In this document: piece after piece, positions 32,718-48,668 of the stretch
Layout of the letters: every line of letters starts with the position of its first letter
Numbering within the stretch: position 1 is the stretch's first letter
Assembly: GCF_000716605.1 (NCBI RefSeq)
Contig: NZ_JNXE01000014.1
Span: 215,180 to 279,179, forward strand
From: Streptomyces sp. NRRL F-525
Lineage (GTDB): Bacteria; Actinomycetota; Actinomycetes; Streptomycetales; Streptomycetaceae
Length of the DNA: 64,000 nucleotides
Direction of reading: 5' to 3'
The notes under the pieces: model-generated
Told to the model about the DNA's origin: nothing
The model's database searches: none
The model's input: only the letters and a program-made list of their open reading frames with translations
Position numbers and translations under genes: made by a program

Positions 32718-33425
32718 ATGGCAGAGCAGCTGACGGGACTGGCAGACGACCGCGCCCTCCTGGGCCGTACGAGCACCGCGGAACGTGTCTCGGACATCCT
32801 CAGGAGCCGGATCGCGGAGGGTTATTTCCCGCCGGGCACACGGCTCTCGGAGGACAGCATCGGCGGGGCGCTCGGTGTGTCGCGCAACACACTCCGCGAG
32901 GCGTTCCGGCTGCTTACCCATGAGCGGCTGCTCGTCCACGAGTTGAACCGGGGCGTCTTCGTCCGGGTCCTGAGCGTCGAGGACGTCGAGGACATCTACC
33001 TCACCCGCCGCCTCGTCGAGTGCGCCGTCGTGCGCGGACTGGGCGAGCCGCCGTACGCCCTCGAACAGCTCGCCTCGGCCGTCACCGAAGGGCAGTTGGC
33101 GTCCGTCGAAGATGACTGGAAAGGCGTGGGTACGGCCAATATCCACTTCCACCGGGAACTCGTCGCCCTCGCCGGCAGCGCCCGCACGGACGAGCTGATG
33201 CGCAGCGTCTTCGCCGAACTCCGGCTCGCCTTCCACCTCGTGGACGACCCGAAGGCGCTCCATGAGCCGTACCTCCAGCGCAACCGCCTGATCCTCCAGG
33301 CCCTCCAGGCGAACGACGCGGCCGAGGCCGAGAAACTGCTCGCGGTCTACCTCGACGACTCGCTCGACCGGGTCGTCGACGCGTACCGGCAGCGGGTCGG
33401 CGAGGACGGCACGGTGGTCGACTGA
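32718..33425 (+). CDS. GntR-family regulator (FCD type)
   Basis: A 235-residue protein with an N-terminal winged helix (RVSDILRSRIAEGYFPPGTRLSEDSIGGALGVSRNTLREAFRLLTHE) and a C-terminal FCD helical domain with NIHFHRELVALAGSARTDELM, which usually binds a small carboxylate and a metal. Divergent from the 5-oxoproline operon with a perfect palindrome between them; 5-oxoproline or glutamate is the likely effector, by context. The start is ATG 32718. Confidence 0.92.
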   Translation: MAEQLTGLADDRALLGRTSTAERVSDILRSRIAEGYFPPGTRLSEDSIGGALGVSRNTLREAFRLLTHERLLVHELNRGVFVRVLSVEDVEDIYLTRRLVECAVVRGLGEPPYALEQLASAVTEGQLASVEDDWKGVGTANIHFHRELVALAGSARTDELMRSVFAELRLAFHLVDDPKALHEPYLQRNRLILQALQANDAAEAEKLLAVYLDDSLDRVVDAYRQRVGEDGTVVD

Positions 33426-33514
33426 CCCGCACATGACCGACACACGTGGTTGAGGCGGTAGTCGCTTCTGCGTCGTTTGGGTCGTTGTCAGACCGAGGAC
33501 CTAGTCTGTGCACC

Positions 33515-35041
33515 GTGACTTCGCCTGCATCGACGGACAGCGTTCCGCCCCAGTTCAGCGCGGGGCCGCGCCCCGCCCCGGGCCCGGCCGCCGACGAGGG
33601 ACTGGCGCGGCGACTGCGCGCGCTCGCCTGCACCGCGCCGCTGCACGACCTCGACGCACGCAAGGCCAATCTCGCTGGCGAGTACTCGGTCTACGGCATG
33701 GCCGAGGTGGCCCTCGCCGCCATCGACCTGGTCACCCTGAACATGGACTTCGACACGGGTGCCGACCACGACCAGATAGTGGCCAGGCTCATCCCGCGCA
33801 TCGCCGCACAGGCCCCGCAGCGCCCCGTCGCCGAGCACGAGCGCGTGGCCCGCTGGGTCCTGGAGAACCTGATCAACGTCGGCAGCGTCGACCGCGGCTT
33901 CCGCACGGTCTACGGCACGTTCGCGCAGGACGGCACGTATGTGCGCCGGGACTACGACTTCAAGCTGATCGAGGAGGTTCCCGGTTACGGGGGCAGCGTG
34001 TACCTCCGTACGACCGACGAGGCCGTCAACGTCCTCGTGGGCGCCCTCGACACCGACGTCACCAGTGCGCAGATCGCCGCCGAGGTGAAGCTGGAGGTGC
34101 TGATCAGCCGGGGGCGGCTCGCCGACGCGCAGCTCGCCGCGGAGCAGGCCCGGTACCGGACCGTGCAGTACTCGGAGACGCTCCGGCGCGCGCTGGACGC
34201 GACGCGGCGCAACGTCCGCGCGGTGGACTGGCTCAGTGCTGTGCCGGACATGATCGCCGAGGCTCTCGATCACGTTGCTGATCGGTATCGCCACGAGAAC
34301 GCGATCCTGACCAATATCCGCAAGGCCCGTGACGAGTCCGAGGACGCCGAACAGAAGCGGCGGGCGGCCGAGTTGGTCGACATCGTCAAGGACTGCATCC
34401 GGCGGCACACGCAGCTTCAGTCGCGTCTTCTGGAGGCGGGGCCGCTGTTCCGTGCGGAGCAGGATCGGCAGGCCTTCGCCACGCCGATGACGACCTCGGG
34501 GATCGACCTCTACGGGCATCTCGTTTCGCCTGTGCTGCCGTTGCCGCTGGAGTCGGCGATCCGGGTCACTGACGCGTTCTTCGCTCGGGGGACCGGGTTG
34601 CGTACGCCGGTGTCCGTTCGGGTGGGGGATCTTGTCGACATACTGCTGACGCCGCCTGCTGAGCGGGAGCATCTTGGGGCGGAGATGCCTGAGCCGGATC
34701 TCATCGCCACGCCGGACGACAGTCGGTTCAGCGAGGAGCAGCTGGCTGCGGCCATGGAGTTGCTTGATCTGCCTGCGGATGCGCCTCGGCGGTTGTCGGG
34801 GTTGCTGGCTGACGCGCGGCGTCAGGACGCGGAACTTCCTTATCTGGTTGCCCTGTTGGCCGTGCATGCGGCGAGTCCGCCTGTTGGTACCGCCTACCGG
34901 CAGGGAGAGCCGAAGTTGTTGTTCGCCGTGGATGACGGGACCGAACTGGATGATCACGAGTTCGGTGGGGCTGATCTCATCGTCGGGGTGGCCTTGTTGG
35001 ATGCGGCGGGGATGGCTGCTGGTCGGAGTGATGCGGCGTGA
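33515..35041 (+). CDS. MksF/JetA-like kleisin candidate
   Basis: A 508-residue soluble, mostly helical protein. A winged-helix-like N-terminal part ends around ARWVLENLINVG. It is followed by YLRTTDEAVNVLVGALDTD and a long helical section (residues about 190-330). This layout, with a small MksE-like gene and a giant SMC-like gene next, is that of MksF/JetA kleisins. Identification rests on operon structure and helical layout rather than a sequence signature. GTG 33515 has no ribosome site; TAGTCT at 33502-33507 ends 7 nt before it, suggesting a leaderless transcript. From about 34,250 codon use turns T- and G-richer than the neighbours (many TTG, CTT, GTT). Confidence 0.65.
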   Translation: MTSPASTDSVPPQFSAGPRPAPGPAADEGLARRLRALACTAPLHDLDARKANLAGEYSVYGMAEVALAAIDLVTLNMDFDTGADHDQIVARLIPRIAAQAPQRPVAEHERVARWVLENLINVGSVDRGFRTVYGTFAQDGTYVRRDYDFKLIEEVPGYGGSVYLRTTDEAVNVLVGALDTDVTSAQIAAEVKLEVLISRGRLADAQLAAEQARYRTVQYSETLRRALDATRRNVRAVDWLSAVPDMIAEALDHVADRYRHENAILTNIRKARDESEDAEQKRRAAELVDIVKDCIRRHTQLQSRLLEAGPLFRAEQDRQAFATPMTTSGIDLYGHLVSPVLPLPLESAIRVTDAFFARGTGLRTPVSVRVGDLVDILLTPPAEREHLGAEMPEPDLIATPDDSRFSEEQLAAAMELLDLPADAPRRLSGLLADARRQDAELPYLVALLAVHAASPPVGTAYRQGEPKLLFAVDDGTELDDHEFGGADLIVGVALLDAAGMAAGRSDAA

Positions 35042-35075
35042 TGGGTCGGTCGTCTTTCGGGTGCGGGCTCGCTGT

Positions 35076-35137
35076 GGCTGGTCGCGCCCACGCGGCGGAG
35101 CCGCAAATGTCACAGCCCCGCGCCCCTGAAGGGGCGC
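35076..35137 (+). repeat. Dispersed intergenic repeat, copy 2
   Basis: This copy matches 575-642 (minus strand). It ends in a hairpin GCGCCCC-TGAA-GGGGCGC (35120-35137). It lies inside the condensin-like operon, between the first and second gene, and could reduce read-through. Confidence 0.6.
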
Positions 35138-35177
35138 CTGTCCTCGACCTCGTATGGAAGACCAAGGAGTTGCAGTC

Positions 35178-36056
35178 GTGAGTGAGCAGGGCGAATGGAG
35201 TGAACCGGAGGTTGCCGCCCCCGCGGTGAGTGCTGCTGTCACGCCCGCCGATGCTGCCGACGCGGCTCGTCTCGTCGCGTTTGGGTTGCAGCCGAAGTTG
35301 CAGCCCGCTCGGGATCAGGAGTACGCGGAGTTGCTCCGCCGATACCGCGAGGATTCGCCGTTCGCGCGGCTCGCCGACGCCGTTGCCGCCGGGCTTGGGC
35401 TGGTTGTGCTGGAGGTGTCCCCGCGCGCGGGGATGGCTGTGACTGCCGCTGAGGACTCGGTGTTCGCCGTGCGGATGGGGGACTACGCGCGTCGTACGGC
35501 TGCCGATTCCGGGGATCGGTTCCTGCATGGACTCGCGCATCTTGCCGTGGCCGCGATGGCGTTTCCGCGGCCCGAGGATCTTGCTGATGACGGGTACATC
35601 GGGCGGGTCACGGTCAACGGGGTCGACGCCTTTGTGCGGCAGGCCTGTCGGCGGCTGGAGGAGCGGGCCGACGAGCAGGGCATGAACACCGACCCGGCCA
35701 CCGACGCGCCCGGGCTGGAGGCCGCCTGGCGTATTTGGGTCAGACGCAGTGCCACCGGAGCCACCAAGGACGCCCGGAGACTGGCCGGTTCGACCACCGG
35801 GATCGTCGGCAAGGCCGCCGCCTTCCTCACCGACTCCGGGTTCCTGCAGCGCACCGGTGACGACAACGGCGGTACCTATCGCACGACCGCCCGTTATCAG
35901 CTCCAGGTGCGTGACATGGCCGGAAGCGCCGCCATGGCCGAGCTGCTGGAGCTGGGCGTTGTCCCGGTCACCGACGGCACCGCGAGCCTGATGCCCGCCG
36001 AGGACACCGAGGACTTGGAGCTGGTGGCCGACGCCGGGCTGCCGTTCCACTCCTGA
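35178..36056 (+). CDS. MksE/JetB-like condensin subunit candidate
   Basis: A 292-residue protein. A region around residues 40-130 is followed by a winged-helix-like block (KDARRLAGSTTGIVGKAAAFLTDSGFLQRTGDDNGGTYRTTARYQLQVRDMAG). The size and position between the kleisin-like and SMC-like genes fit MksE/JetB. GTG 35178 is chosen because AAGGAG lies 8 nt upstream; ATG 35154 is the alternative. It is followed 66 bp later by the SMC-like gene. The first half keeps the unusual T-rich codon use seen in the end of the previous gene. Confidence 0.65.
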   Translation: MSEQGEWSEPEVAAPAVSAAVTPADAADAARLVAFGLQPKLQPARDQEYAELLRRYREDSPFARLADAVAAGLGLVVLEVSPRAGMAVTAAEDSVFAVRMGDYARRTAADSGDRFLHGLAHLAVAAMAFPRPEDLADDGYIGRVTVNGVDAFVRQACRRLEERADEQGMNTDPATDAPGLEAAWRIWVRRSATGATKDARRLAGSTTGIVGKAAAFLTDSGFLQRTGDDNGGTYRTTARYQLQVRDMAGSAAMAELLELGVVPVTDGTASLMPAEDTEDLELVADAGLPFHS

Positions 36057-36122
36057 GATTCCTCAGCTCCTGAGGTTTCTCAACTCCCCCCACCTGCCGA
36101 AGACTTACGACGAGAGTCCGCC

Positions 36123-39100
36123 ATGTACGAGCTGTCCCGGGTCCGCCTCTACTCCATCGGGCCCGCCGGTGCGCGCTACGCCGACACCGTGCTTGACCTG
36201 CGGGGCGTGGGCCAGCCCGTGCCCGACCCCGCGCCCACCCAGGCGGAGTTCTTCGAGGACGAGCCCGTCGGGCCGCCGCGCCGCCCCGCGCCCGCCGGCG
36301 TGCTCTTCCTGGAGAACGGCGGCGGCAAGTCCGTCCTGCTCAAGCTGATCTTCTCCGTGATGCTGCCGGGACATCGCAACACCCTTGGCGGCGCGAGTTC
36401 CGGTGTGCTGCGCAAGTTCCTCCTCGCGGACGACTGCGGCCATGTCGCCCTGGAGTGGCAGCACACGCTGACCGGCGAGTGCGTGGTCGTCGGCAAGGTC
36501 AGCGAGTGGCGGGGGCGCCAAGTCTCCAACGACCCGCGGAAGTTCGCCGAGGCCTGGTACTCGTTCCGGCCCGGGCCGGGGCTCAGCCTGGACAACCTCC
36601 CCGTCGCCGAGGCCACTTCCGTACGGCCGCCCGTCGAGGGCGCGTCCGGCGCGCAGGGCCGTCGGCGCACCATGAAGGGCTTCCGGGACGCCATCACCGA
36701 GGCGGGCAAGGCGTATCCGCACCTCGAAGTGCACTGGGAGGAGATCCACGACCGCTGGATCGAGCACCTCGGCGACCTCGGCCTCGACCCCGAACTCTTC
36801 CGCTACCAGCGGGAGATGAACGCCGACGAGGGCGAGGCCGCTGGTCTCTTCGCCGTGAAGAAGGACTCCGACTTCACCGACCTGCTGCTCCGCGCGGTCA
36901 CCGACACCCGGGACACCGACGGCCTCGCCGACCTGGTCGGCGGCTTCGGCAACAAGCTGGGGCGACGGGCCGAGCTGATCGCCGAGCGGGACTTCACGGC
37001 CGGTTCCGTGGATCTGCTCGGCCGGATCGTCGAGGCCGCCGAGGCACGGGCACGCGCGCGTGACATCCACGCCGGCGCCGAGCGCCGTACGCGCACCCTG
37101 GCCCGGCGGCTGTCCGCGCGGGGCGCGCAGGAGCGGGTGCGGGCCGCCGACCTCGCCCAGCGGGTCACCGCCGCCGCGTCCGCCGTCACCCACGCCGAGG
37201 GGGCGCGGGAGCGCAGCGCGCTGATCGCCGCCGAACTCGCTTACCGGCACGCCTCGTTGGCACTCGCCACCATGGAGAAGTCCGCCGCCGCACAGAAGCG
37301 CGAGCTGGCCGACGCCCGCACCCTGCACGCCGCCTGGCAGGCCGCCGAGGCGGTCCTACGGCATCGCGCCGCCGCCGACCGCTCCGCGCGCGTGGCCGTC
37401 GCCATCCGCGAGGCCGAGCGGGACGCGGCACCGGCGCTCGCCGCCCGCGCCAAGGCCGCCGTCGATCTCGTACGGGCCCTGCACTCGGCCGCCGAGAGCG
37501 CCGAGAACCTCGCCAACGAGGGCGAGGAGCGTTCCGCCGAGCTCCAGGAGGTCGGCGAGACCTCGCACCGGGACGCGACCTCCGCCGCCACCGAGGCGCA
37601 GCGCGCCCGCAGCGAGGTCGGGCATCTGCGTCAGCGCCTGTCCGAGGTCGAGCAGGAGACCGCCGAGGCGGTGCGCGCCGGTTGGCTCGACGACAGCGCC
37701 CCCGACGCCGACCCGGCCCGCGCGGCCCTCGCCGCGAGCGACGCCGAGAAGACCGCCGTGGCCTCCTGGGACACCGCACGCGAGGCATCCCGCAAGGCCT
37801 CCGAGCACGCGCGCGAGGCCGCTTCCGCCGAGTCCCGCGCGGAGTTGACGGCGGCCCGCGCGTCCGACGCCGCCACCGCCGCCGAGCGGACCTACGACGC
37901 GGAGCGGCGCCTCGCCGAGGGGCTGGCGGGGGAGGAGCGCCTGGCTGAGCTGCTCAGCTTGCCTGCCGCTGGTGCCGTGGGCGGTGGTGTGCCGGTGCCG
38001 CGTGGTGCAGGTGGCGAGCGCGCGGGGGACGGGGCCGTAGGCCGTGCCGGTCACGGTACTGAGGGCGACGCCGGTGCCGGTGACGAGTCGGACGCACGAA
38101 CCGGTGTTTCGGCCAACGGCGTTGCAGGAAGCGGCCGTTCCGCCGCCTCGGCCGCCCGTCCCCTCGCCGACGGCCCTCTCACCCCCGAGGAACTCGACCG
38201 CTTCGCCGACGAGTGGCGCGAGCTGCTCGACGACGGGGTCTCCTCCGCCGAGCGGAACCTCTTCGACCTGCGTACCGCCGCAGCCGACGACTCCCGGATC
38301 CTCGGGGCGCTCGGTGACGGCGGGCTGCTGCCGCCAGGCCCGGACGTGCTGGCCACCGTGGAGTACCTCGGCGAGCACGGCATCCCCGCGCTGCCCGGCT
38401 GGCGTTACCTCGCCCAGGCCGTCGACCCCACCGACCACGCGCGCGTGCTCGCCGCCCGGCCCGAGCTGGTCGACGGCGTGATCATCACCGACCCGGACAC
38501 GCACGCGCGTGCCCGCGAGGCCCTCAACGACGCGGCCCTGCTGCCCCGTTCCGCCGTGGCGGTCGGTACGGCCGCCGCCCTGCTCGCTCCGACCCCGGCG
38601 CCCGACGCGCAGAGCAGCGACGTCTTTCTCGTACCGCCGAACCCGGCCATGCACGACGAGCACGCCGCCGACGAGGAGCGGCAGGCGCTGCGCGCGCGGG
38701 CGGGGCAGCGGGACGAGGAGATCCGTACGCTCGCCGCGCGGCTCGGCAAGGACCGGGAGCTGGCGGCGCGGCTCGCGTCCTGGCGCACCGGCTGCCCGAG
38801 CGGGCGGCTGGTCGAGCTGGCGCAGGCCGCGCGGGACACGCGCGCGTTCGCCGAGGAGGCCGAGGCCGAGCTCGCCGAGGCGCGGACCGTGCGGGCGGAG
38901 GCGGATGAGGTCGCCGCCGAGGCCGCCCAGGTGCGTGACGAGCGGCAGGAGGCCGCGCAGAAGGCCCGGCGCGCCGCCGACGCCCTCGCCGGACTCGCCT
39001 TCCGGCTGCGGGAACGCGCCGGCTGGCAGGTCAAACTCCGTGAACTGGCCGACGAGGCAGCTGAGTCGGAGGCCCGCGCCCAGTCCTGCCTGGAGCGCGC

Positions 39101-40895
39101 CCGCGCCGCCGACGAGGACCGCCGTGCCGCCCAGCGCGCCGCCGACGACGCCCGCCGCACGGCCCGTGCGCTGCGCGCCGAGCGCTCCGAGATCGCGGGC
39201 GCCCCCGACGACGTACCGGAAGACGACCCGGACGCCCCCAAGCCCGCGCTGGCCGCCCTCCGTGAGGCCTACCGGGCCGCCTCGCAGCTCTACGAGAAGG
39301 TCGGCGTCGGCGCCGATCTGCGGGCCGAGCAGGCGCGGGCGGAGAGCGACGAGAGCGCGGCGATCGCGGAGTTGGACCGGCTCAGCAACAAGGTCCGCAC
39401 GCGCGCGGCGCAGTTGCTGGAGTCACCCGACGGCTCCGACGGGCCGTCCCGGCAGGCCGCCGCGGCGCGTGCCGAGGAACTGGTGCAGTTGCTGGAGACC
39501 CGGGTCTCGACCGCGAGCGAGCAGCTCGGGCGGCTGCGCGGCGAGGCCGAGCGGCACGCGCCCGAGGACGGCGAGGCGCACACCGAGCTGGCCGAGGAAC
39601 TCGTCCCGCGCGACGCCGAGCACGCCCAGGCCCTGCTGCGCACCGCGACCGCCGAACTCGGCTCCCGCACCGACGCGTTGGGCCAGGCCCGCGAGGCGCA
39701 CGCCGAACTCCTCGACGCGCATCGCGCCGCCGAGGACGGGGCCGGCGGTTTCGACGAGACCGCCGCGATGCTCCGGGACCTGATGCGCGAGCACTCCTCG
39801 GACGAGGAGCAGGAGGAGCCCGAGCCGTACCCCGGCAGCGTGGAGGAGGCCCGGCACTCCGCCGCCGAGGCCCGCCGCTCGCTGCGCGGCTGCGCCGCCG
39901 ATCTGTCCGCCGCCGAGGCCGCCGTACGCGAGGCGAGCGATGTGCTCGTGCGGCACGCCAACTCCACGCGCTACGAGCAGGTACGGACCCCCGCGCGGCA
40001 GCAGATCCGCGAGCTGCCCGCGTCCGCGCTGCCCGAGCACGCGCAGAAGTGGGCCGACGCCTTCGCGCCCCGACTCCGGGTCCTCACCGACGAGTTGGCG
40101 CAATTGGAGCGCAACCGCGACTCGATCGTGGACCGGCTCCGCGGGCTCGTCGAGTCGGCGCTGGCGACCCTGCGGTCCGCGCAGCGGCTGTCCCGGCTGC
40201 CCGAGGGGCTCGGCGAGTGGTCCGGCCAGGAGTTCCTGCGGATCCGCTTCGAGGAGCCCGACCAGGCCACGCTCACCGAGCGGCTCGGTGTGGTCGTCGA
40301 CGAGGCGACCCGGGCCGCGGTGAAGAAGAACTCCGACATGCGGCGCGACGGAATGTCCCTGCTGCTGCGGGGAGTTGGGGCCGCCCTTGAACCCAAGGGT
40401 GTCGCCGTCGAGATCCTCAAGCCGGACGCCGTCCTGCGCGCCGAGCGGGTGCCCGTCGGGCAGATGGGCGACGTCTTCTCCGGCGGTCAGCTGCTCACCG
40501 CGGCCATCGCCCTGTACTGCACGATGGCCGCGCTGCGCTCGAACGACCGGGGCCGCGACAAGCACCGGCACGCCGGCACACTCTTCCTCGACAACCCCAT
40601 CGGGCGGGCCAACGCGACGTATCTGCTGGAGCTGCAGCGCGCCGTGTCCGACGCGCTCGGGGTCCAACTCCTGTACACCACCGGCCTGTTCGACACCACG
40701 GCACTGGCCGAGTTCCCGCTGGTCATCCGGCTGCGCAACGACGCCGACCTGAGGGCGGGCCTCAAGTACATCAGCGTGGAGGAGCACCTCCGGCCGGGGC
40801 TGCCGCAGCAGGCCCCCGCCGGAGAGGGTGAGTCGGTGCACAGCGAGATCACGGCGACCCGGATGTTCAAGCGCCCGGCGCCGATCGCTCCGTAG
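36123..40895 (+). CDS. Giant SMC-like ATPase (MksB/JetC-like), 1590 residues
   Basis: A protein with two half-ATPase sites at its ends and very long coiled coils between, the SMC/MukB plan. The N-terminal head has LFLENGGGKSVLLKL (Walker A about residues 62-75). The C-terminal head has VFSGGQLLTAAIALY (ABC signature about 1451) and GTLFLDNPIGRANATY (Walker B about 1487), then LLYTTGLFD, a D-loop/H-loop-like region. The middle (about 680-800) is the hinge-like part. A Gly/Ala/Val/Pro-rich stretch at about 612-682 interrupts the arm. Related MukB and Wadjet JetC proteins organise or detect DNA by loop extrusion. No JetD/MksG TOPRIM nuclease follows; the next gene is convergent. Confidence 0.8.
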   Translation: MYELSRVRLYSIGPAGARYADTVLDLRGVGQPVPDPAPTQAEFFEDEPVGPPRRPAPAGVLFLENGGGKSVLLKLIFSVMLPGHRNTLGGASSGVLRKFLLADDCGHVALEWQHTLTGECVVVGKVSEWRGRQVSNDPRKFAEAWYSFRPGPGLSLDNLPVAEATSVRPPVEGASGAQGRRRTMKGFRDAITEAGKAYPHLEVHWEEIHDRWIEHLGDLGLDPELFRYQREMNADEGEAAGLFAVKKDSDFTDLLLRAVTDTRDTDGLADLVGGFGNKLGRRAELIAERDFTAGSVDLLGRIVEAAEARARARDIHAGAERRTRTLARRLSARGAQERVRAADLAQRVTAAASAVTHAEGARERSALIAAELAYRHASLALATMEKSAAAQKRELADARTLHAAWQAAEAVLRHRAAADRSARVAVAIREAERDAAPALAARAKAAVDLVRALHSAAESAENLANEGEERSAELQEVGETSHRDATSAATEAQRARSEVGHLRQRLSEVEQETAEAVRAGWLDDSAPDADPARAALAASDAEKTAVASWDTAREASRKASEHAREAASAESRAELTAARASDAATAAERTYDAERRLAEGLAGEERLAELLSLPAAGAVGGGVPVPRGAGGERAGDGAVGRAGHGTEGDAGAGDESDARTGVSANGVAGSGRSAASAARPLADGPLTPEELDRFADEWRELLDDGVSSAERNLFDLRTAAADDSRILGALGDGGLLPPGPDVLATVEYLGEHGIPALPGWRYLAQAVDPTDHARVLAARPELVDGVIITDPDTHARAREALNDAALLPRSAVAVGTAAALLAPTPAPDAQSSDVFLVPPNPAMHDEHAADEERQALRARAGQRDEEIRTLAARLGKDRELAARLASWRTGCPSGRLVELAQAARDTRAFAEEAEAELAEARTVRAEADEVAAEAAQVRDERQEAAQKARRAADALAGLAFRLRERAGWQVKLRELADEAAESEARAQSCLERARAADEDRRAAQRAADDARRTARALRAERSEIAGAPDDVPEDDPDAPKPALAALREAYRAASQLYEKVGVGADLRAEQARAESDESAAIAELDRLSNKVRTRAAQLLESPDGSDGPSRQAAAARAEELVQLLETRVSTASEQLGRLRGEAERHAPEDGEAHTELAEELVPRDAEHAQALLRTATAELGSRTDALGQAREAHAELLDAHRAAEDGAGGFDETAAMLRDLMREHSSDEEQEEPEPYPGSVEEARHSAAEARRSLRGCAADLSAAEAAVREASDVLVRHANSTRYEQVRTPARQQIRELPASALPEHAQKWADAFAPRLRVLTDELAQLERNRDSIVDRLRGLVESALATLRSAQRLSRLPEGLGEWSGQEFLRIRFEEPDQATLTERLGVVVDEATRAAVKKNSDMRRDGMSLLLRGVGAALEPKGVAVEILKPDAVLRAERVPVGQMGDVFSGGQLLTAAIALYCTMAALRSNDRGRDKHRHAGTLFLDNPIGRANATYLLELQRAVSDALGVQLLYTTGLFDTTALAEFPLVIRLRNDADLRAGLKYISVEEHLRPGLPQQAPAGEGESVHSEITATRMFKRPAPIAP

Positions 40896-40916: not shown

Positions 40917-41519
40917 TCAGGAGTGGGACAGCTGCCCGGCGCCGCTCTTGCGGGCTATCCGCTCCTGGGCACGCTCGCTGGACCGCGCCTGACGCTGGGC
41001 CCGACGCCGCTCGCGGCGGAGGGCCCTCGCGGTGCTGCTGGGCTCCGAGACCACGCCGTTGCGCTGGTTCCACATCTGGCGGGTCACCCACACGTCCAGG
41101 GCGCCCCAGGTGGCCACCACCGTGCTCACCACGCTGCTGATCACCATCGGGAACGCCAGCCAGGACCCGGCCATCGTGCACAGGAAGGCAACCGTCGCCT
41201 GGATCAGCGTCACCGCGATGATGATCACCGCCCGCACGGCCGCCGTACGCACCGGATCGGGCAGCCGGCGCCGACGCGCGGGCTCCTCGATCCACAACGG
41301 CCGGTAGTACTCCTGCTGTTGCCCTGTAGCGCGGGCCGAGCGCGGCTCGTCGAAATCCGCGCTCGTCCGCTCGTCCGCGTCCCTGTGGGCCGCGCCGCCG
41401 CCCGTCGTCGTGCCACCGTCTGCCGCCATGTCGCGATCCGGTGCCTCACGGCGCCGCTGCGCCGTCGACCGCGCCGCCACGCCGTCCTCAAGCGCCTCTT
41501 GCCGCTCCGCCGTGCCCAT
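40917..41519 (-). CDS. Membrane protein with two helices, conserved hypothetical
   Basis: A 200-residue protein: a charged, disordered N-terminal 100 residues ending YYRPLWIEEPARRRRLPDP, two hydrophobic helices (AVIIIAVTLIQATVAFLCTMAG and AFPMVISSVVSTVVATWGAL), and an Arg-rich C-terminal helix (RALRRERRRAQRQARSSERAQERIARK). No family recognised. ATG 41519 has GGAGG 8 nt upstream. It is convergent with the SMC-like gene (21-bp gap) and divergent from the conservon, so a link to either is only positional. Confidence 0.78.
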   Translation of the reverse strand: MGTAERQEALEDGVAARSTAQRRREAPDRDMAADGGTTTGGGAAHRDADERTSADFDEPRSARATGQQQEYYRPLWIEEPARRRRLPDPVRTAAVRAVIIIAVTLIQATVAFLCTMAGSWLAFPMVISSVVSTVVATWGALDVWVTRQMWNQRNGVVSEPSSTARALRRERRRAQRQARSSERAQERIARKSGAGQLSHS

Positions 41520-41937
41520 CAACGTGTCCTCCCCACCGCCGGTACACCACTCGCCCCGGAGTCCGAAGACTCCGTCTCCCCAGTGGGTGCCCGGCTTGCG
41601 CTGTTTTACGCCGCACGGTTGCGGATGCGGCTCGTGTGGCCGGTTCCGCCCCCATGTCCCGTAGAGAAAGACGAACAACATGCCACGAAGATTCCCAACG
41701 GACGAAAAATTCCGGCCAACTGGCCAAGTGGACCGATCGGACGGGGTGTGGTGATCCCGGGGATATCGGGGCGGCAATCTCCCGCAATGACCCGACAACT
41801 CCCCATGTCCGGTCACTGTTGCGGAAGTTCACGCTCCGGACAGCTCTTCGAGTTACCTCTGTGTCAGTAGTAGGCTCGCGCCGTTTGTTGACGTACATGT
41901 GTGCCCCCGGCCGGCGGGGGTCCAGCTGGGGGAGGCC
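41520..41937. other. 418-bp divergent region upstream of the conservon
   Basis: No gene seen. A weak plus-strand promoter candidate (TTCGAG at 41847-41852, 18-bp spacer, TAGGCT at 41871-41876) lies about 60 bp before cvnA. The region has lower GC than its flanks around 41,680-41,880. Confidence 0.4.
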
Positions 41938-44760
41938 ATGCGCTTTCGCGGGAAGTCCATCCGCCGGAAGATCGTGGCGCTCCTTCTCGTGCCGCTCGTG
42001 TCCCTGACCGCGATCTGGGCGTTCGCCACGGTCCTCACCGGCCGGGCGGCCGGGGACCTGTTCGACGTGTCGTCGGTCGTCGAGAAGATCGGCTATCCCA
42101 CCGAGGACACCGTCCGGGTCATCCAGCAGGAACGCCGGCAGTCGCTCGTCTATCTCGCCGACCCGCGCGCCGCCGACGGGCCCACCGATCTCAGGCGCAG
42201 CCGCGCCGCGACCGACGCGGCCGTCGCCAAGATCCGCAAGAACGCCGACAACCCGGACGTGCGCGACGCGATGGGGCAGGCCACCGACAGCCGTGTCGCC
42301 GCCGTCCTCGACGCGTTCGACGGGCTCCAGTCGCTGCGGCGCAGCGTCGACGACGGCACCGTCGACCGCGCCCAGGCCCTCGGTCTCTACAACCACCTCG
42401 TCGACCCGTGCTACGTGCTGCTGTCCAACCTCCATGTCGTCGACAACGTCGAGATGGACAAGCAGTACCGCGCCCTCGTGAACCTCGCCCGCGCGCGGGA
42501 GTTCCTCTCCCGTGAGGACGCCCTGCTCGGCTCCTCCCTGGTCGTCGGCAAGCTCACCCGGGACGAGACCCGCGACGTCTCCGACCTGGTCGCCCAGCGC
42601 ACCCTGATGTACGACGTCAACCTGCCGCTGCTGCCCGCCGCGGAGCGCGGCCACTTCGAACGCTTCTGGAGGAACGCGGCCAGCGCCCCGCTGCGCGTGG
42701 CCGAACAGGCCGCCGCCTCCACCACGTCCGGCATGCCCCGCAACGTCACCGCGCAGACCTGGAACACCGCGGCCGGCGCGGTGCTGGCCAAGCTCGGCAC
42801 CCTCGACGACCAGGCCAACGACCGCTACCAGGACCGTGTTCGCCCGGTCGCGATGAGGGTCATCCTCAAGGCGGCCGTCGCCGGTGTCCTGGGGCTGATC
42901 GCCCTCCTGTTCTCGCTCTTCCTGTCGGTGCGTATCGGCCGCGGCCTCATCCGCGACCTGCGCCAACTGCGCCTGGACGCCCACGAGGCTTCCGGCGTCA
43001 GGCTGCCCAGCGTGATGCGCCGCCTGTCCGTCGGCGAAGTGGTCGACGTGGAGACCGAGGTCCCGCGCCTGGAGTACGACCGCAACGAGATCGGCGACGT
43101 CGGCCAGGCCCTGAACACCTTGCAGCGCGCGGCGGTCGAGGCCGCCGTCAAGCAGGCCGAACTGCGCTCTGGTGTCTCCGAGGTCTTCGTCAACCTCGCC
43201 CGCCGCAGCCAGGTCCTGCTGCACAAGCAGCTCACCCTGCTCGACACCATGGAGCGCAGGACCGAGGACACCGACGAACTCGCCGACCTGTTCCGCCTCG
43301 ACCACCTGACGACCCGTATGCGCCGTCACGCCGAGGGCCTGGTGATCCTCTCCGGGGCTGCCCCGTCCCGGCAGTGGCGCAAACCGGTCCAGCTCATGGA
43401 CATCGTCCGCGCGGCCGTCGCCGAGGTCGAGGACTACGAGCGCATCGAGGTCCGCCGGCTGCCGCGCATCGCCGTCACCGGCCCCGCCGTGGCGGACCTC
43501 ACCCACCTCGTGGCCGAACTCCTGGAGAACGCCACGGTGTTCTCCCCGCCGCACACCGCGGTCCAGGTCCTGGGAGAGCGGGTCGCCAACGGCTTCACCC
43601 TGGAGATCAACGACCGCGGCCTCGGCATGGCGGCCGAGGCACTCCTGGACGCCAATCTGCGGCTCGCCGAGACACCGGAGTTCGAACTCTCCGACACCGA
43701 CCGCCTCGGCCTGTTCGTGGTCAGCCGGCTCGCCCAGCGGCAGAACGTCCGCGTCTCGCTCCAGCCCTCGCCGTACGGCGGCACCACCGCCGTCGTGTTC
43801 ATCCCGGACGCCCTGCTGAGCGACGAGGTCCCCGACACCAACGGCATCGGCTTCCGCCTCGACCGGCCCCGGCCGTCGAAGGAGGCCGAGCTGGAGGAGA
43901 GCCGCCGCTCCGCGCTCTCCCAGATGCCCGTGAAGCTGCCCGGCCTGCCGCCCGCCCTCCTGGACGGACCGGTCGAACTGGAAGCGCCCGTCGACCTGGA
44001 CGCCCTCGAAGGCTTCCCGAACGGGCTCGACGACGAGGACGGTGAGCGCGGCGGGATCTTCCGCCCCCGTCGGGCCTCCACCCACAGGGACGATCTCGCC
44101 CCCGTACGCCCCGTAGACGCGCATCAACAGGTCCCCGACGCCGACGCGGACGGTCACCGCGGCGAGCCGCTTCCGCTGCCCCGACGCCGTACGCCCAAGC
44201 TGGTCAGCTCCCATGGACGCCCGGTCGTCGAGCAGCGCTCCCGACGCGAGACGGGGGACTCCGTAGAGGCCGATTTCGACGGCCCCGCCACGGCACCGAC
44301 CCTGGGCGGACCGGAAGCGGACGGCCCCGCACCGCTCCCTGCCCGGCGTCGCGGTGACACGCCGCTACGGCGCCGTACCGACGTCCCTGGGGGGCGTGCC
44401 GACTCCGCGCAGCCCCCCGCCTCCCCGGGGCGCGGACTCGGCGAACCGCCCGAGACGCCCGCACTCCCCAGGCGCACCCGGCGGGCCGAACTCGCGGCCG
44501 GCGCACCGGACTCCGACACCCCGCCGAGCACCGGAGCGTTGCCCAGACGCGTACGTCAGGCCAATCTGGCCCCGCAGCTGAAACAGGACCCCGAGCGGCG
44601 CGCCGCGAGCCCGGCGGAGGTCGCCGAGCGCGACGCCGACGAGGTGCGCAGCCGTATGGCCTCGCTCCAGCGCGGCTGGCAGCGCGGCCGCGAGGAGAAC
44701 GCCGAGGGCGACGACGCCCGAGGCGGCACAGCACAAGGAACTAAGGGGGACGGTCGATGA
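41938..44760 (+). CDS. cvnA: Conservon sensor kinase-like protein CvnA
   Basis: A 940-residue membrane protein. One helix near residues 15-37 (IVALLLVPLVSLTAIWAF), an extracytoplasmic nitrate/nitrite-sensing-like domain to about 300, a second helix (VILKAAVAGVLGLIALLFSLFL), HAMP and coiled region, then a GHKL ATPase: N-box HLVAELLENATVFSPP and G-box NDRGLGMAAEALL. No clear phospho-accepting His precedes the ATPase, as usual for CvnA proteins. The last 270 or so residues are charged and disordered. ATG 41938 has GGGGGAGG. It overlaps cvnB by 4 bp (ATGA). Confidence 0.93.
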   Translation: MRFRGKSIRRKIVALLLVPLVSLTAIWAFATVLTGRAAGDLFDVSSVVEKIGYPTEDTVRVIQQERRQSLVYLADPRAADGPTDLRRSRAATDAAVAKIRKNADNPDVRDAMGQATDSRVAAVLDAFDGLQSLRRSVDDGTVDRAQALGLYNHLVDPCYVLLSNLHVVDNVEMDKQYRALVNLARAREFLSREDALLGSSLVVGKLTRDETRDVSDLVAQRTLMYDVNLPLLPAAERGHFERFWRNAASAPLRVAEQAAASTTSGMPRNVTAQTWNTAAGAVLAKLGTLDDQANDRYQDRVRPVAMRVILKAAVAGVLGLIALLFSLFLSVRIGRGLIRDLRQLRLDAHEASGVRLPSVMRRLSVGEVVDVETEVPRLEYDRNEIGDVGQALNTLQRAAVEAAVKQAELRSGVSEVFVNLARRSQVLLHKQLTLLDTMERRTEDTDELADLFRLDHLTTRMRRHAEGLVILSGAAPSRQWRKPVQLMDIVRAAVAEVEDYERIEVRRLPRIAVTGPAVADLTHLVAELLENATVFSPPHTAVQVLGERVANGFTLEINDRGLGMAAEALLDANLRLAETPEFELSDTDRLGLFVVSRLAQRQNVRVSLQPSPYGGTTAVVFIPDALLSDEVPDTNGIGFRLDRPRPSKEAELEESRRSALSQMPVKLPGLPPALLDGPVELEAPVDLDALEGFPNGLDDEDGERGGIFRPRRASTHRDDLAPVRPVDAHQQVPDADADGHRGEPLPLPRRRTPKLVSSHGRPVVEQRSRRETGDSVEADFDGPATAPTLGGPEADGPAPLPARRRGDTPLRRRTDVPGGRADSAQPPASPGRGLGEPPETPALPRRTRRAELAAGAPDSDTPPSTGALPRRVRQANLAPQLKQDPERRAASPAEVAERDADEVRSRMASLQRGWQRGREENAEGDDARGGTAQGTKGDGR

Positions 44761-45188
44761 CCGCACCGAAGGCGACCGGCCACAGCACCGACCAGCGCGG
44801 GCTGAACTGGCTCCTCGACGACCTCGTCGAGCGCGTCGCCAGCATCCGCAAGGCCATCGTGCTCTCCGGCGACGGCCTCGCCACCGGCGTGTCCCAGGAC
44901 CTGACCCGCGAGGACAGCGAACACCTGGCCGCCGTGGCCTCCGGCTTCCACAGCCTCGCCAAGGGCGTCGGCCGCCACTTCGAGGCGGGCAGCGTGCGGC
45001 AGACGGTCGTCGAACTCGACGAGGCCTTCCTGTTCGTGACGGCCGCGGGTGACGGCAGCTGCCTCGCCGTCCTCGCGGACGCCGACTCGGACGTCGGACA
45101 GGTCGCCTACGAGATGACCCTGCTCGTGAAGCGGGTCGGTGTGCATCTGGGGGCCGCTCCGCGCACCGACGTGTCCTCCGGCGGGTAG
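44757..45188 (+). CDS. cvnB: Conservon roadblock/LC7 protein CvnB
   Basis: A 143-residue roadblock/LC7 domain (GLNWLLDDLVERVASIRKAI then VLSGDGLATGVSQDL, and VVELDEAFLFVTAAGDGSCLAVLAD). In conservons CvnB binds the GTPase CvnD and is thought to work with CvnA like a G-protein-coupled module at the membrane. Its start overlaps cvnA, and cvnC follows after 9 bp, so the four genes are one operon. Confidence 0.93.
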   Translation: MTAPKATGHSTDQRGLNWLLDDLVERVASIRKAIVLSGDGLATGVSQDLTREDSEHLAAVASGFHSLAKGVGRHFEAGSVRQTVVELDEAFLFVTAAGDGSCLAVLADADSDVGQVAYEMTLLVKRVGVHLGAAPRTDVSSGG

Positions 45189-45197
45189 TGGAGTGAC

Positions 45198-45593
45198 ATG
45201 AGCGGAGACGGTCAGGGAAGAAGCCACTGGTTCGACGACGAGGCCGGACCGGTCGTCAGGCCGTACGCGATGACGCGCGGCCGCACCACCAGTGCGGCCC
45301 AGCACCGCCTCGACCTCATCGCGGTGGTGATCGCGGAGTCCCACGAGGACGACTCGGAAGCGGACCAGACGCTGTCCCCGGAGCACGTGGACATCGTCGG
45401 TCTCTGCCGTGACGCCCCGCAGTCGGTCGCCGAACTCGCCGCCGAACTCGACCTGCCCATCGGGGTGATACGGGTCCTCATCGGCGATCTCGTGGACGGC
45501 GAACTCGTCCATGTGTCACGTCCCGTACCCCCGGCCGAACTGGTGGACGAGAGTATTCTGCGCGACGTGATCTCCGGCCTCCGGGCCCTGTGA
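45198..45593 (+). CDS. cvnC: Conservon DUF742 protein CvnC
   Basis: A 131-residue DUF742 protein with the family core PYAMTRGRTT and a winged-helix-like C-terminal half (HVDIVGLCRDAPQSVAELAAELDLPIGVIRVLIGDLVDGEL). It binds the conservon complex; direct DNA binding is possible from the HTH-like region but not shown. The start codon is ATG 45198, 49 bp upstream of which lies no separate promoter. Confidence 0.92.
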   Translation: MSGDGQGRSHWFDDEAGPVVRPYAMTRGRTTSAAQHRLDLIAVVIAESHEDDSEADQTLSPEHVDIVGLCRDAPQSVAELAAELDLPIGVIRVLIGDLVDGELVHVSRPVPPAELVDESILRDVISGLRAL

Positions 45594-45642
45594 GCGGCGC
45601 GAGCCACCGCACCCCTACCTCATCAAGCAGGAGAAAAGACCG

Positions 45643-46248
45643 ATGATCTTCGGGCGTACTGAGCGAGGCAAGCCTCCGGTCGAGCCCGTCACGCTCAAGA
45701 TCCTGGTGGCCGGCGGCTTCGGCGTGGGCAAGACCACCCTCGTCGGCGCGGTCAGCGAGATCAGGCCGCTGCGCACGGAGGAGTTGCTCACCGAGGCGGG
45801 GCGTCCGGTCGACGACACCAGCGGGGTGGAGGGCAAGCACACCACCACCGTGGCCATGGACTTCGGCCGTATCACCCTGCGGGATGACCTGGTGCTGTAC
45901 CTCTTCGGTACGCCAGGCCAGGAGCGGTTCTGGTTCATGTGGGACGAGCTCTCCGAGGGCTCGCTCGGCGCCGTGGTGCTCGCCGACACCCGCCGCCTGG
46001 AGGACTGCTTCGCAGCCCTCGACTACTTCGAGCGGCGCTCCATACCCTTCGTCGTCGGCGTCAACTGCTTCGAGGGCGCGGACCGTTACCCCGTGGACGC
46101 CGTACGCCAGGCCCTGGACCTCGACGAGGACGTCCCCCTCATGCTCTGCGACGCGCGCGACCGCGCGTCGGTCAAGGAGGTCCTCATCGAGGTCGTCCAG
46201 CACGCGATGGCCTACGGCGCGAAGCGCCGCCAGAGCGTCACGAGTTGA
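45643..46248 (+). CDS. cvnD: Conservon Ras-like GTPase CvnD
   Basis: A 201-residue small GTPase. G1 GGFGVGKTTLVG, G3 FGTPGQERFWFMWDE and a VNCFEGAD segment where Ras proteins have NKxD mark the CvnD family. It is the GTP-switch of the conservon. In S. coelicolor conservons affect development and antibiotic production. AGGAG precedes ATG 45643. A terminator hairpin follows at 46262. Confidence 0.93.
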   Translation: MIFGRTERGKPPVEPVTLKILVAGGFGVGKTTLVGAVSEIRPLRTEELLTEAGRPVDDTSGVEGKHTTTVAMDFGRITLRDDLVLYLFGTPGQERFWFMWDELSEGSLGAVVLADTRRLEDCFAALDYFERRSIPFVVGVNCFEGADRYPVDAVRQALDLDEDVPLMLCDARDRASVKEVLIEVVQHAMAYGAKRRQSVTS

Positions 46249-46261
46249 GGCACGGGCGCGA

Positions 46262-46289
46262 CCCGTACCCCCGCCGACCGGGGTACGGG
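46262..46289. terminator. Terminator between cvnD and glpK
   Basis: CCCGTACCCC (46262-46271) pairs perfectly with GGGGTACGGG (46280-46289) across 8 nt, between convergent genes. Confidence 0.75.
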
Positions 46290-46301
46290 CCGCAGCTCGC
46301 G

Positions 46302-46352
46302 GAACGACACGCACGCGCGTGTGCCTCGTGAACGACCCACGCGCGTGTGCCT
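46302..46352. repeat. Imperfect 28-bp tandem repeat at the glpK 3' end
   Basis: GAACGAC followed by ACGCGCGTGTGCCT occurs twice (46302-46326, 46330-46352). The second copy runs into the last codon of glpK. Each holds the palindrome CACGCGCGTG. Confidence 0.75.
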
Positions 46353-47862
46353 AGTTGTCGCCGTCCTCCTCCCAGCCGAAGCTCTTCTCCACCGCCTTGC
46401 GCCAGTTGTGGTACTCGCGGTCCCGTACCGACGCCTCCATGGAGGGCGTCCACTCGACGTCCTTCTGCCAGTGCGCCTTGAGCTCGTCCAGGTCGTTCCA
46501 CACCCCGGTGGCGAGCCCGGCCGCGTAGGCGGCGCCCAGGCAGGTCGTCTCGGAGACCTTGGGCCGGATCACCGGTACGTCGAGGACGTCCGCCTGGTGC
46601 TGCATCAGGAGGTTGTTCTTGGTCATGCCGCCGTCCACCTTCAGGGTGGTGATCTGCACCCCGGAGTCCTGGAACATGGCGTCCACGACCTCGCGCGTCT
46701 GCCAGCTCGTCGCCTCCAGCACCGCCCGCGCGAGGTGCGCCTTCGTGACGTACCGGGTCAGCCCGGTGACGACTCCGCGCGCGTCGGAGCGCCAGTAGGG
46801 GGCGAACAGGCCGGAGAACGCGGGCACGATGTACGCGCCACCGTTGTCGTCCACGCTCGCGGCGAGGGTCTCGATCTCGTCGGCGTTGCGGATGATGCCG
46901 AGTTGGTCCCGGAACCACTGGACGAGCGCGCCCGTTATGGCAATTGAGCCCTCCAGGCAGTAGACCGGCGCCTCCCCGCCGATCTTGTAGCCCATGGTCG
47001 TCAGCAGCCCGTTCTTCGAAGGGACGGGCCGGTTCCCGGTGTTGAGCAGCAGGAAGCTGCCCGTGCCGTAGGTGTTCTTCGCGTTGCCCACGTCGTAGCA
47101 GGCCTGTCCGAACACGGCGGCCTGCTGGTCGCCGAGGGCCGACGCGATGGGCACGCCCGCGAGTTGGCCGACCGCGGTGCCGTAGACCTCGGCGGAGGAC
47201 TTGATCTCGGGGAGGATCGCCTCGGGGACGTTCATCGCGGAGAGGATGGACGGGTCCCACTGGAGGGTCTCCAGGTTCATCAGCATGGTGCGCCCGGCGT
47301 TGGTCACGTCGGTGACGTGTTTGCCGCCGTCGGTGCCGCCGGTGAGGTTCCAGATGAGCCAGGAGTCGATCGTTCCGAAGGCGATCTCGCCGCGCTCGGC
47401 GCGGTCCCTGAGGCCGGGCACGTTGTCGAGCAGCCAGGCCGCCTTGGGGCCGGAGAAGTAGCTGGCGAGCGGCAGTCCGGTCTGCTCGCGGAAGCGGTCC
47501 GGGCCGTCCGAACCGCCCAGTTGCTTGCAGAGGGCCGCGGTGCGGGTGTCCTGCCACACGATCGCGTTGTGCACGGGTTTGCCGGTGGCGCGGTCCCAAA
47601 GGACCGTCGTCTCACGCTGGTTGGTGATGCCGAGCGCGCTGAGCTGGTCGGCGCGCAGTCCCGCCTTGGCGATCGCCCCGGCGACCACCGCCTGCACCTT
47701 GGACCAGATCTCGGTGGCGTCGTGCTCCACCCAGCCCGGCTTGGGGAAGATCTGGCGGTGCTCACGCTGGTCGACGGCGACGATCGCGCCGTCCTGGTTG
47801 AAGACGATGCAGCGGCTTGAGGTGGTGCCCTGGTCGATTGCGGCGACGAACCTGTCCGTCAT
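46351..47862 (-). CDS. glpK: Glycerol kinase
   Basis: A 503-residue FGGY kinase, full family length. It phosphorylates glycerol to sn-glycerol 3-phosphate. The N-terminus [16 protein letters not shown] is the phosphate-1 motif; the substrate block is [18 protein letters not shown], with [21 protein letters not shown] is the adenosine motif. ATG 47862 has AAAGGGG. It follows glpF by 80 bp, so the two form an operon for glycerol uptake and trapping. No glpD is adjacent. Regulation by a GylR-like IclR protein is plausible from other streptomycetes. Confidence 0.96.
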
Positions 47863-47942
47863 GACGACCCCTTTGTCGTGTCCTTCGGATCCTCCGGGGG
47901 ACTGCTCCGGTCCTTCGGAGGGCTGCTTTCGGAAGACCGTTG

Positions 47943-48668
47943 TCAGAAGGCTGCGTTGAAGATGACTCCGGCGAGCGCCCCGCCGATCAGCGGTCCCACC
48001 ACCGGGATCCACGCGTAACCCCAGTCCGAGGTGCCCTTGTTCGGGATCGGGAGCAGCGCGTGGACGATGCGCGGGCCCAGGTCACGCGCAGGGTTGATGG
48101 CGTACCCGGTGGGACCGCCCAGCGACAGACCGATGCCGACCACCAGGAAGGACACGACCAGTACCGCCGTGCCGGACGTACCGAGTCCCTTGGTGAGCCC
48201 GAAGGCCAGGATCGGCAGCACCAGCGCGATCGTCGCGATGATCTCCGTCATCAGGTTCGCCACGACATTGCGGATCGTGGGCGTGGTGGAGAAGATCCCG
48301 AGCGTGGGCTGCGCCATCTCCTCCTCGGCGTTGGCCTGGAACTGCGCGTAGTAGACGAGCCAGCACAGCACCGCGCCGAGCATGGCGCCGACCATCTGCC
48401 CCGCGATGTAGAGCGGGACCTTGTCCCACTTCCCGGTGTCGATGGCGATGCCGATCGTGACCGCGGGGTTGAGCTGCCCGCCGGACAGCGGCGCCGCGGT
48501 GTACGCCCCGGCCATCACGCCGAAGCCCCAGCCGAACGCGATGACGATCCAGCCGGAGTTCTGTGCCTTGGAGTAGTTCAGTACGACGGCGGCGACCACG
48601 CCGGCGCCGAAGAGGATCAGGATCGCGGTGCCGATGACCTCACCGAGGAATATGTCTCCATTGCTCAT
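47943..48668 (-). CDS. glpF: Glycerol facilitator (MIP channel)
   Basis: A 241-residue aquaglyceroporin with six helices and two half-helices. The NPA boxes are GGQLNPAVT and [12 protein letters not shown]; the Asp after the second NPAR is typical of glycerol-conducting members. It is in the cytoplasmic membrane. ATG 48668 has AGGAG 8 nt upstream. It is the first gene of glpFK. Confidence 0.95.

Follow-up and report, generated by a model that had tools for sequence, protein, structure and literature searches.

The 64,000-nucleotide stretch of Streptomyces sp. NRRL F-525 analysed here (the window) contains three collinear genes on the + strand at 33515–40895, jetA, jetB and jetC, which encode a putative structural maintenance of chromosomes (SMC) complex of the Wadjet type. 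The genes follow the order kleisin–KITE–SMC without a nuclease gene, with subunits named by homology to JetA, JetB and JetC, and are spaced by 136 bp (jetA–jetB) and 66 bp (jetB–jetC). Close copies of this set in other Streptomycetaceae are referred to below as core copies.

33515–35041, + strand: jetA, type III kleisin-like subunit (GTG start, 508 residues; PADLOC JetA3)
35178–36056, + strand: jetB, KITE-like subunit (GTG start, 292 residues by the lengths of its homologues)
36012–36053, + strand: core-specific C-terminal tail of JetB, DLELVADAGLPFHS, from the alignment of JetB copies
36123–40895, + strand: jetC, SMC-like ATPase (ATG start, 1590 residues; PADLOC JetC3)
36312–36332, + strand: Walker A motif of JetC, ENGGGKS (residue 64)
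38031–38189, + strand: variable low-complexity insert of JetC, residues 637–689 (90% gap in the six JetD-bearing copies compared)
40476–40490, + strand: ABC signature of JetC, FSGGQ (residue 1452)
40581–40604, + strand: Walker B motif of JetC, LFLDNPIG (residue 1487)

An alternative ATG start for jetB at 35154 would give 300 residues; most homologues among the matches listed have ~292. All three ATPase motifs are identical in 12 of 12 aligned core copies, the alignment being restricted to loci with a jetC match and leaving out L034 and L078, in which jetC is broken into two reading frames, whether by a genuine frameshift or by faulty assembly. At the Walker B position SMC proteins usually carry D-E; the D-N of the core is also present in JetC of the JetD-bearing copies. 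The JetB tail, ending in DAGLPFHS, occurs in 64 of 67 named Streptomycetaceae, and the printed ends of the remaining three resemble another reading frame; it is absent from the aligned JetD-bearing and Frankiaceae copies. Tail and insert were compared across nine core, eight Frankiaceae and six JetD-bearing rows.

PADLOC profiles identify JetA as JetA3 (PDLC00567, E = 3.2e-185) and JetC as JetC3 (PDLC00588, E = 0). JetB matches no PADLOC profile, and a control JetB in the plasmid locus L174 is matched only at 4e-4; JetB is 33–58% identical to the JetB of nine JetD-bearing loci. Pfam and NCBIfam give nothing above cut-off for the three proteins, with sub-threshold matches for JetA (NCBIfam) and JetB (Pfam) and no match at all for JetC; no MukB, MukE or MukF model in either database is matched, and JetC has no match among Protein Data Bank sequences. 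Public homologues among the matches listed are mostly named 'hypothetical protein', a few 'DUF3375 domain-containing' or 'membrane protein'. By profile and size (JetC ~1500 residues) the predicted three-gene set is of the type III Wadjet lineage and not of the shorter MksB type. A preliminary description of this DNA had reported three collinear genes of 508, 292 and 1590 residues, the three motifs in an SMC-like protein, and a convergent gene in place of jetD after jetC; these are confirmed, the 292 residues fitting the GTG at 35178, and the next gene has no Pfam match. Its assignment to an MksBEF/Wadjet-like operon stands for the Wadjet type and fails for the likeness to MksB, since profile and size fit type III Wadjet.

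Distribution, constraint and the search for JetD

JetA matches are present in 193 of 199 Streptomyces genomes (192 of the 194 good ones). Phyletic spread, put forward in the preliminary description as a check, proves near-complete: core-type jetA, defined by a best E ≤1e-176, is carried by 191/194 good Streptomyces genomes, with G121 (distant copy only) left out, and JetA identity within the genus is 86–100% among the matches listed. A family sample of 101 genomes, 21 of them Streptomyces, has a JetA match in 100 (97 of 98 good ones) and core-type jetA in 96/98 good genomes and 16 of 17 genera, with 73–100% identity and G492 (26%) left out. In a class sample the match is limited to 43 of 296 genomes and 5 of 114 genera, all in Streptomyces or one other family, which the names of the nearest proteins and loci show to be Frankiaceae; there JetA occurs in 19 of 35 genomes, and the main copies are 60–63% identical. 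No plasmid match exceeds 60% identity in 72,556 records (five records fall below that value), and no phage match was found in 50,697 records. Two or more JetA matches occur in 18/199 Streptomyces genomes, eight of which have JetD_C; in G056, the one genome retrieved among the ten double-match genomes without JetD_C, the second match is a fragment.

Divergent jetABC loci with jetD are found in the same genus, with JetA 32–49% identical to the core (eight loci) and jetD abutting or overlapping jetC. Loci L034–L042 were picked by JetD_C and have JetD by construction; L089 (54%), L090 (30%) and the plasmid loci L174 (52%) and L175 (30%) were selected through their JetA, and all have JetD. One near relative, with an annotated JetD, is on a Rhodococcus plasmid. 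The core has a GC content of 0.73–0.76 (five copies) against 0.655–0.69 for the JetD-bearing loci (nine loci), and its ratios of nonsynonymous to synonymous substitution (dN/dS) are 0.045–0.066 for JetA and 0.11–0.19 for JetC (five pairs), compared with 0.13–0.17 and 0.27–0.30 in JetD-bearing loci (two pairs). Core copies are near-universal and under purifying selection, which is more than chance, and as one part of the joint reading given below it is fairly likely that the complex has been inherited largely vertically across the Streptomycetaceae.

The genome of NRRL F-525 (10.94 Mb in 241 contigs, with a stated completeness of 100%) contains no JetD_C match and nothing that matches an alignment built from nine JetD proteins of type III (best E 2.45). 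It does contain a DUF2399 protein (E = 4.5e-53); this is the JetD2 subunit of a type II Wadjet that is complete and lies apart, on a different contig:

G000:C12:126000–145999 (L178:1051–9645): type II Wadjet with JetA2, JetB2, JetC2 and JetD2, all four recognised by PADLOC

The stand-alone JetD for which a search had been suggested is therefore absent as regards type III, and the JetD2 that was found belongs to the type II system. A jetD gene in the operon of close relatives, named beforehand in the preliminary description as evidence against its view, was looked for, and a JetD profile has no match in any of 80 named loci (71 Streptomycetaceae, 9 Frankiaceae), 65 of which (60 and 5, respectively) continue for 1.2 kb or more beyond jetC. 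The same profile matches both plasmid loci, one of them annotated as JetD. Weak JetD matches in the Frankiaceae loci L074 (E = 5e-8) and L079 (6e-7) were rejected: they came from two seed frames in which ~300 additional residues precede the JetD portion, the frame of L074 matched by these untrimmed seeds overlaps the end of jetC, and a profile from trimmed JetD matches none of the nine named Frankiaceae loci. Where Frankiaceae contigs reach far enough, JetD is not beside jetC and a convergent gene adjoins it.

Across the 199 Streptomyces genomes JetD_C is present in 24, DUF2399 in 86 and either one in 95; of the 104 with neither, 101 carry core jetA, and so the complex is kept where neither JetD family is detected (the exceptions are G152, G168 and G121). 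Placement relative to core jetA was compared for 16 of the 24 genomes with JetD_C: eight have the two on different contigs and eight on the same contig at least 0.3 Mb apart. G049 and G129 have 533-residue JetD_C frames ~34 kb from one chromosome end (G049:C1:34320; G129:C1:34292) and near the other (10642375 and 8497867), perhaps in terminal inverted repeats.

The jetA promoter region and neighbouring genes

A putative DNA-damage promoter is located immediately upstream of jetA and is predicted to express a leaderless mRNA.

33485–33507, + strand: RecA-NDp-type (PafBC, DNA-damage) promoter motif TTGTCAG-N10-TAGTCT, ending 7 nt before the jetA GTG

The pattern uses consensus letters which we take to be those of RecA-NDp. 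In an alignment of the jetA upstream regions of the window and of 52 named loci with a match beginning at residue 1, a block ending TANNNT is found 5–9 nt before the start in 53/53, against 5% in shuffles. The strict motif precedes 37 of 70 named Streptomycetaceae jetA genes and a relaxed form (first base free) 63 of 70, with 0/3500 in shuffles; the motif counts omit two loci with too short an upstream sequence, one each from Streptomycetaceae and Frankiaceae. Within the same 1.25 Mb only a single motif site lies elsewhere than before jetA. In the NRRL F-525 genome the strict pattern has 56 sites, compared with one for a reversed control pattern. Downstream genes were read at 30 of the 56 sites (chosen by script), and nine of the 29 other than jetA head DNA-repair or helicase genes: a UvrD-type helicase, RuvC, RarA/MgsA, DNA ligase (ligA), a methylguanine methyltransferase, UvrB, UvrA, uracil-DNA glycosylase and an SNF2-type helicase. 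The remaining 20 head mixed genes, several without a Pfam match. Taken as a pattern count, the 56 sites speak for a RecA-NDp-type regulon in this genome. The name of this promoter type, its use by PafBC and the Streptomyces coelicolor sites at recA and at the ultraviolet-induced SCO6735 are described in the available portions of PMC5087735, PMC8223512, PMC6789036 and PMC11804915, the last of which reports in its available text that PafBC is activated by single-stranded DNA.

The JetD-bearing loci L034, L035, L036, L040 and L174 carry the motif upstream of jetA, in its strict form in L034, L035 and L174, which suggests that single-stranded DNA may switch on some type III Wadjets that keep a nuclease. 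The window has a second RecA-NDp-type site, at 60324–60346, 35 nt before a 298-residue frame without a Pfam match.

The genes flanking the operon are as follows.

32718–33425, + strand: GntR/FCD regulator gene, upstream, ending 59 bp before the promoter motif
40917–41816, − strand: convergent gene adjoining jetC, no Pfam match
41899–46248, + strand: conservon-like group (NIT-sensor kinase, Robl_LC7, DUF742, ATP_bind_1/GTPase), downstream, a frequent syntenic neighbour

Within 60 Streptomycetaceae loci the convergent gene is present in 46, the conservon kinase in 43 and the GntR gene in 43; 14 have neither the convergent gene nor the conservon kinase within the available stretch. In the window (41899–48668) the conservon-like group is followed directly by convergent glycerol kinase and MIP-channel genes (glycerol uptake).

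Possible roles of the nuclease-free complex

The reading we favour, with reasonable though not strong confidence, is that the genes encode a domesticated, nuclease-free type III JetABC that serves as a core chromosomal SMC machine of the Streptomycetaceae and is induced by DNA damage; judged by its conservation, it probably has a housekeeping role in genome maintenance. Among the three options raised in the preliminary description the chromosomal complex is the best supported, the copies being near-universal, constrained, and without a detected JetD in half of the genomes. A Wadjet JetABC would have lost JetD and then become fixed in the Streptomycetaceae and part of the Frankiaceae. Dimers of the JetC ATPase, with the JetA kleisin and JetB KITE subunits, would form a ring or dimer of dimers that loads onto DNA and extrudes loops as do Wadjet and MukBEF, and, with no JetD present, extrusion that finishes or stalls would compact, bridge or hold the DNA instead of cutting it. 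With jetA transcribed from the RecA-NDp-type promoter, single-stranded DNA would activate PafBC and raise JetABC along with uvrA, uvrB, ruvC, ligA and others, so that JetABC could give order to damaged or stalled chromosomes, or keep them together, in the multigenomic hyphae.

Several observations weigh against this reading. Assembly of the complex, loop extrusion, PafBC control and a role in repair or segregation are predictions. Predicted structures are of low confidence (mean predicted local distance difference test scores of 56.5 for JetA and 56.2 for JetB). For this poor JetA model the five best Foldseek rows are all Wadjet, MukE-MukF or MukBEF (E 0.05–0.36, TM-scores 0.12–0.16), and 50 VIA-align rows are mostly helical bundles with no Wadjet or Muk entry, which is not counted as contrary evidence; the equally poor JetB model has no Foldseek row at E ≤0.001, its best rows being unrelated (a FIC-domain protein and interferons) and MukE-MukF chains appearing at ranks 24 and 29. 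Both G121 and G492 carry only a distant JetA, and the Frankiaceae copy is present in only 17 of 27 good genomes. The dN/dS values of Frankiaceae copies without JetD (JetA 0.13–0.18, JetC 0.28–0.37; two pairs) resemble those of JetD-bearing loci, so the stronger constraint is a Streptomycetaceae trait and not tied to nuclease absence. A possible common ancestry of the nuclease-free copies in Streptomycetaceae and in Frankiaceae has a support of 86/90 in the JetA tree and of 48/53 in the JetC-head tree (built without L034, L078, L084, L085, L087, L088, the last of which ends inside jetC, and loci lacking a jetC match); both trees are unrooted, so the loss of JetD is inferred, and the genes may have reached Frankiaceae by common descent or by transfer.

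The promoter likewise counts on the other side in part. The motif also precedes JetD-bearing loci (strict 3/12, relaxed 5/12, scanned from 400 nt before to 120 nt after the chosen start), and hence may be an ancestral defence feature kept by the core copy rather than a sign of a new role; in Frankiaceae it is found in 0/8 (strict) or 1/8 (relaxed). The available part of a paper on the Streptomyces venezuelae LexA regulon states that an initial search suggested the Mycobacterium smegmatis PafBC motif not to be conserved, and leaves the PafBC response of that species open (PMC9380542).

The alternative that retains most weight is non-cutting defence, in which JetABC would trap, condense or silence the circular DNA of foreign plasmids or phages, much as Smc5/6 silences viral episomes without cutting them. 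JetD-bearing Wadjets are its closest relatives, one of them plasmid-borne in Rhodococcus, and several JetD-bearing loci share the promoter motif. According to the portion of PMC11804915 available, PafBC is activated by single-stranded DNA; such DNA also enters by conjugation. It is nonetheless unlikely, given that the core copy is near-universal, shares its surroundings and is strongly constrained, unlike the patchy JetD-bearing loci. A broader proposal, which we think quite unlikely, makes the complex a functional counterpart of Smc5/6: a former plasmid-cutting Wadjet, fixed in the streptomycetacean ancestor after losing its nuclease, that single-stranded DNA switches on through PafBC, that combines linear-chromosome repair with non-cutting silencing of incoming DNA and that has a new partner at the conserved JetB tail.

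The JetB tail also lends itself to a replaced effector, an unlinked and unrelated nuclease or other enzyme that would act with JetABC and perhaps dock there: the DAGLPFHS ending is nearly constant in Streptomycetaceae and not seen in the aligned JetD-bearing or Frankiaceae copies, and JetD is reported to contact the JetB N-terminus in the text available of PMC10586767. No candidate partner was found, however, the frequent neighbour past jetC being the convergent gene without a known domain, and this is a slim prospect. Use of a JetD supplied by a second Wadjet of the cell, which would here be the type II one at G000:C12, fits the complete type II system of this genome but is highly improbable when 101 of 199 genomes have core jetA and neither JetD family; the nuclease encoded elsewhere that the preliminary description had considered is disfavoured by these 101 genomes and by the place of the present JetD inside a separate type II system. 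Its further option of an orphan Wadjet, read as decay, is the least credible: jetD is indeed missing while nuclease-bearing relatives exist, but the frames and motifs are intact, dN/dS is low and 16/17 genera of the family sample keep the genes.

If the favoured reading is true, a second core SMC complex exists in Streptomyces, a leading source of antibiotics that also serves as a model of how chromosomes fold and spores form, and SMC motors would be linked to the DNA-damage response. It would also show plainly how an immune SMC system can be turned to housekeeping, and the genus itself offers JetD-bearing relatives to compare. The strong PADLOC JetA and JetC matches carry a warning for defence annotation, as they would be scored as defence in nearly every Streptomyces. 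A survey of actinobacterial defence gives, in its available text, Wadjet in 42% of Actinobacteria with enrichment towards Streptomyces chromosome ends (PMC10482375); the word JetD is absent from its main text. Among the open-licence papers listed for Wadjet/MksB, JetD absence, condensins and PafBC, none describes a nuclease-free Streptomyces JetABC by its title or opening, and the available portions of three papers on Streptomyces SMC (PMC8410768, PMC12511625, PMC13121528) mention no such complex, which seems to be unstudied.

Comparison with known systems

The core shares with type III Wadjet the JetA3 and JetC3 profiles, the A–B–C gene order, the size of JetC and the ATPase motifs including the D-N Walker B. 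It differs in that no JetD is found, in its near-universal rather than patchy occurrence, in the additional JetB tail and JetC insert and, in the window, in the 136 and 66 bp between its genes.

MksBEF of Pseudomonas aeruginosa has the same nuclease-free SMC–kleisin–KITE plan beside canonical SMC-ScpAB, and ScpA is present in the NRRL F-525 genome. The core is set apart by its apparently separate, type III-like Wadjet lineage, 1590-residue JetC, predicted damage promoter and family-wide occurrence. MukBEF of Escherichia coli likewise shares the subunit plan without a nuclease, and MukE-MukF and MukBEF chains are among the best weak fold matches; the core matches no Muk model and coexists with ScpA, whereas MukBEF is said in the available text of PMC10586767 to have replaced SMC-ScpAB. 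Finally, MksBEFG of Corynebacterium glutamicum is also an actinobacterial Muk-like SMC operon but, unlike the core, keeps its MksG nuclease and acts on plasmids, with an MksB of 1111 residues (available text of PMC10123090).

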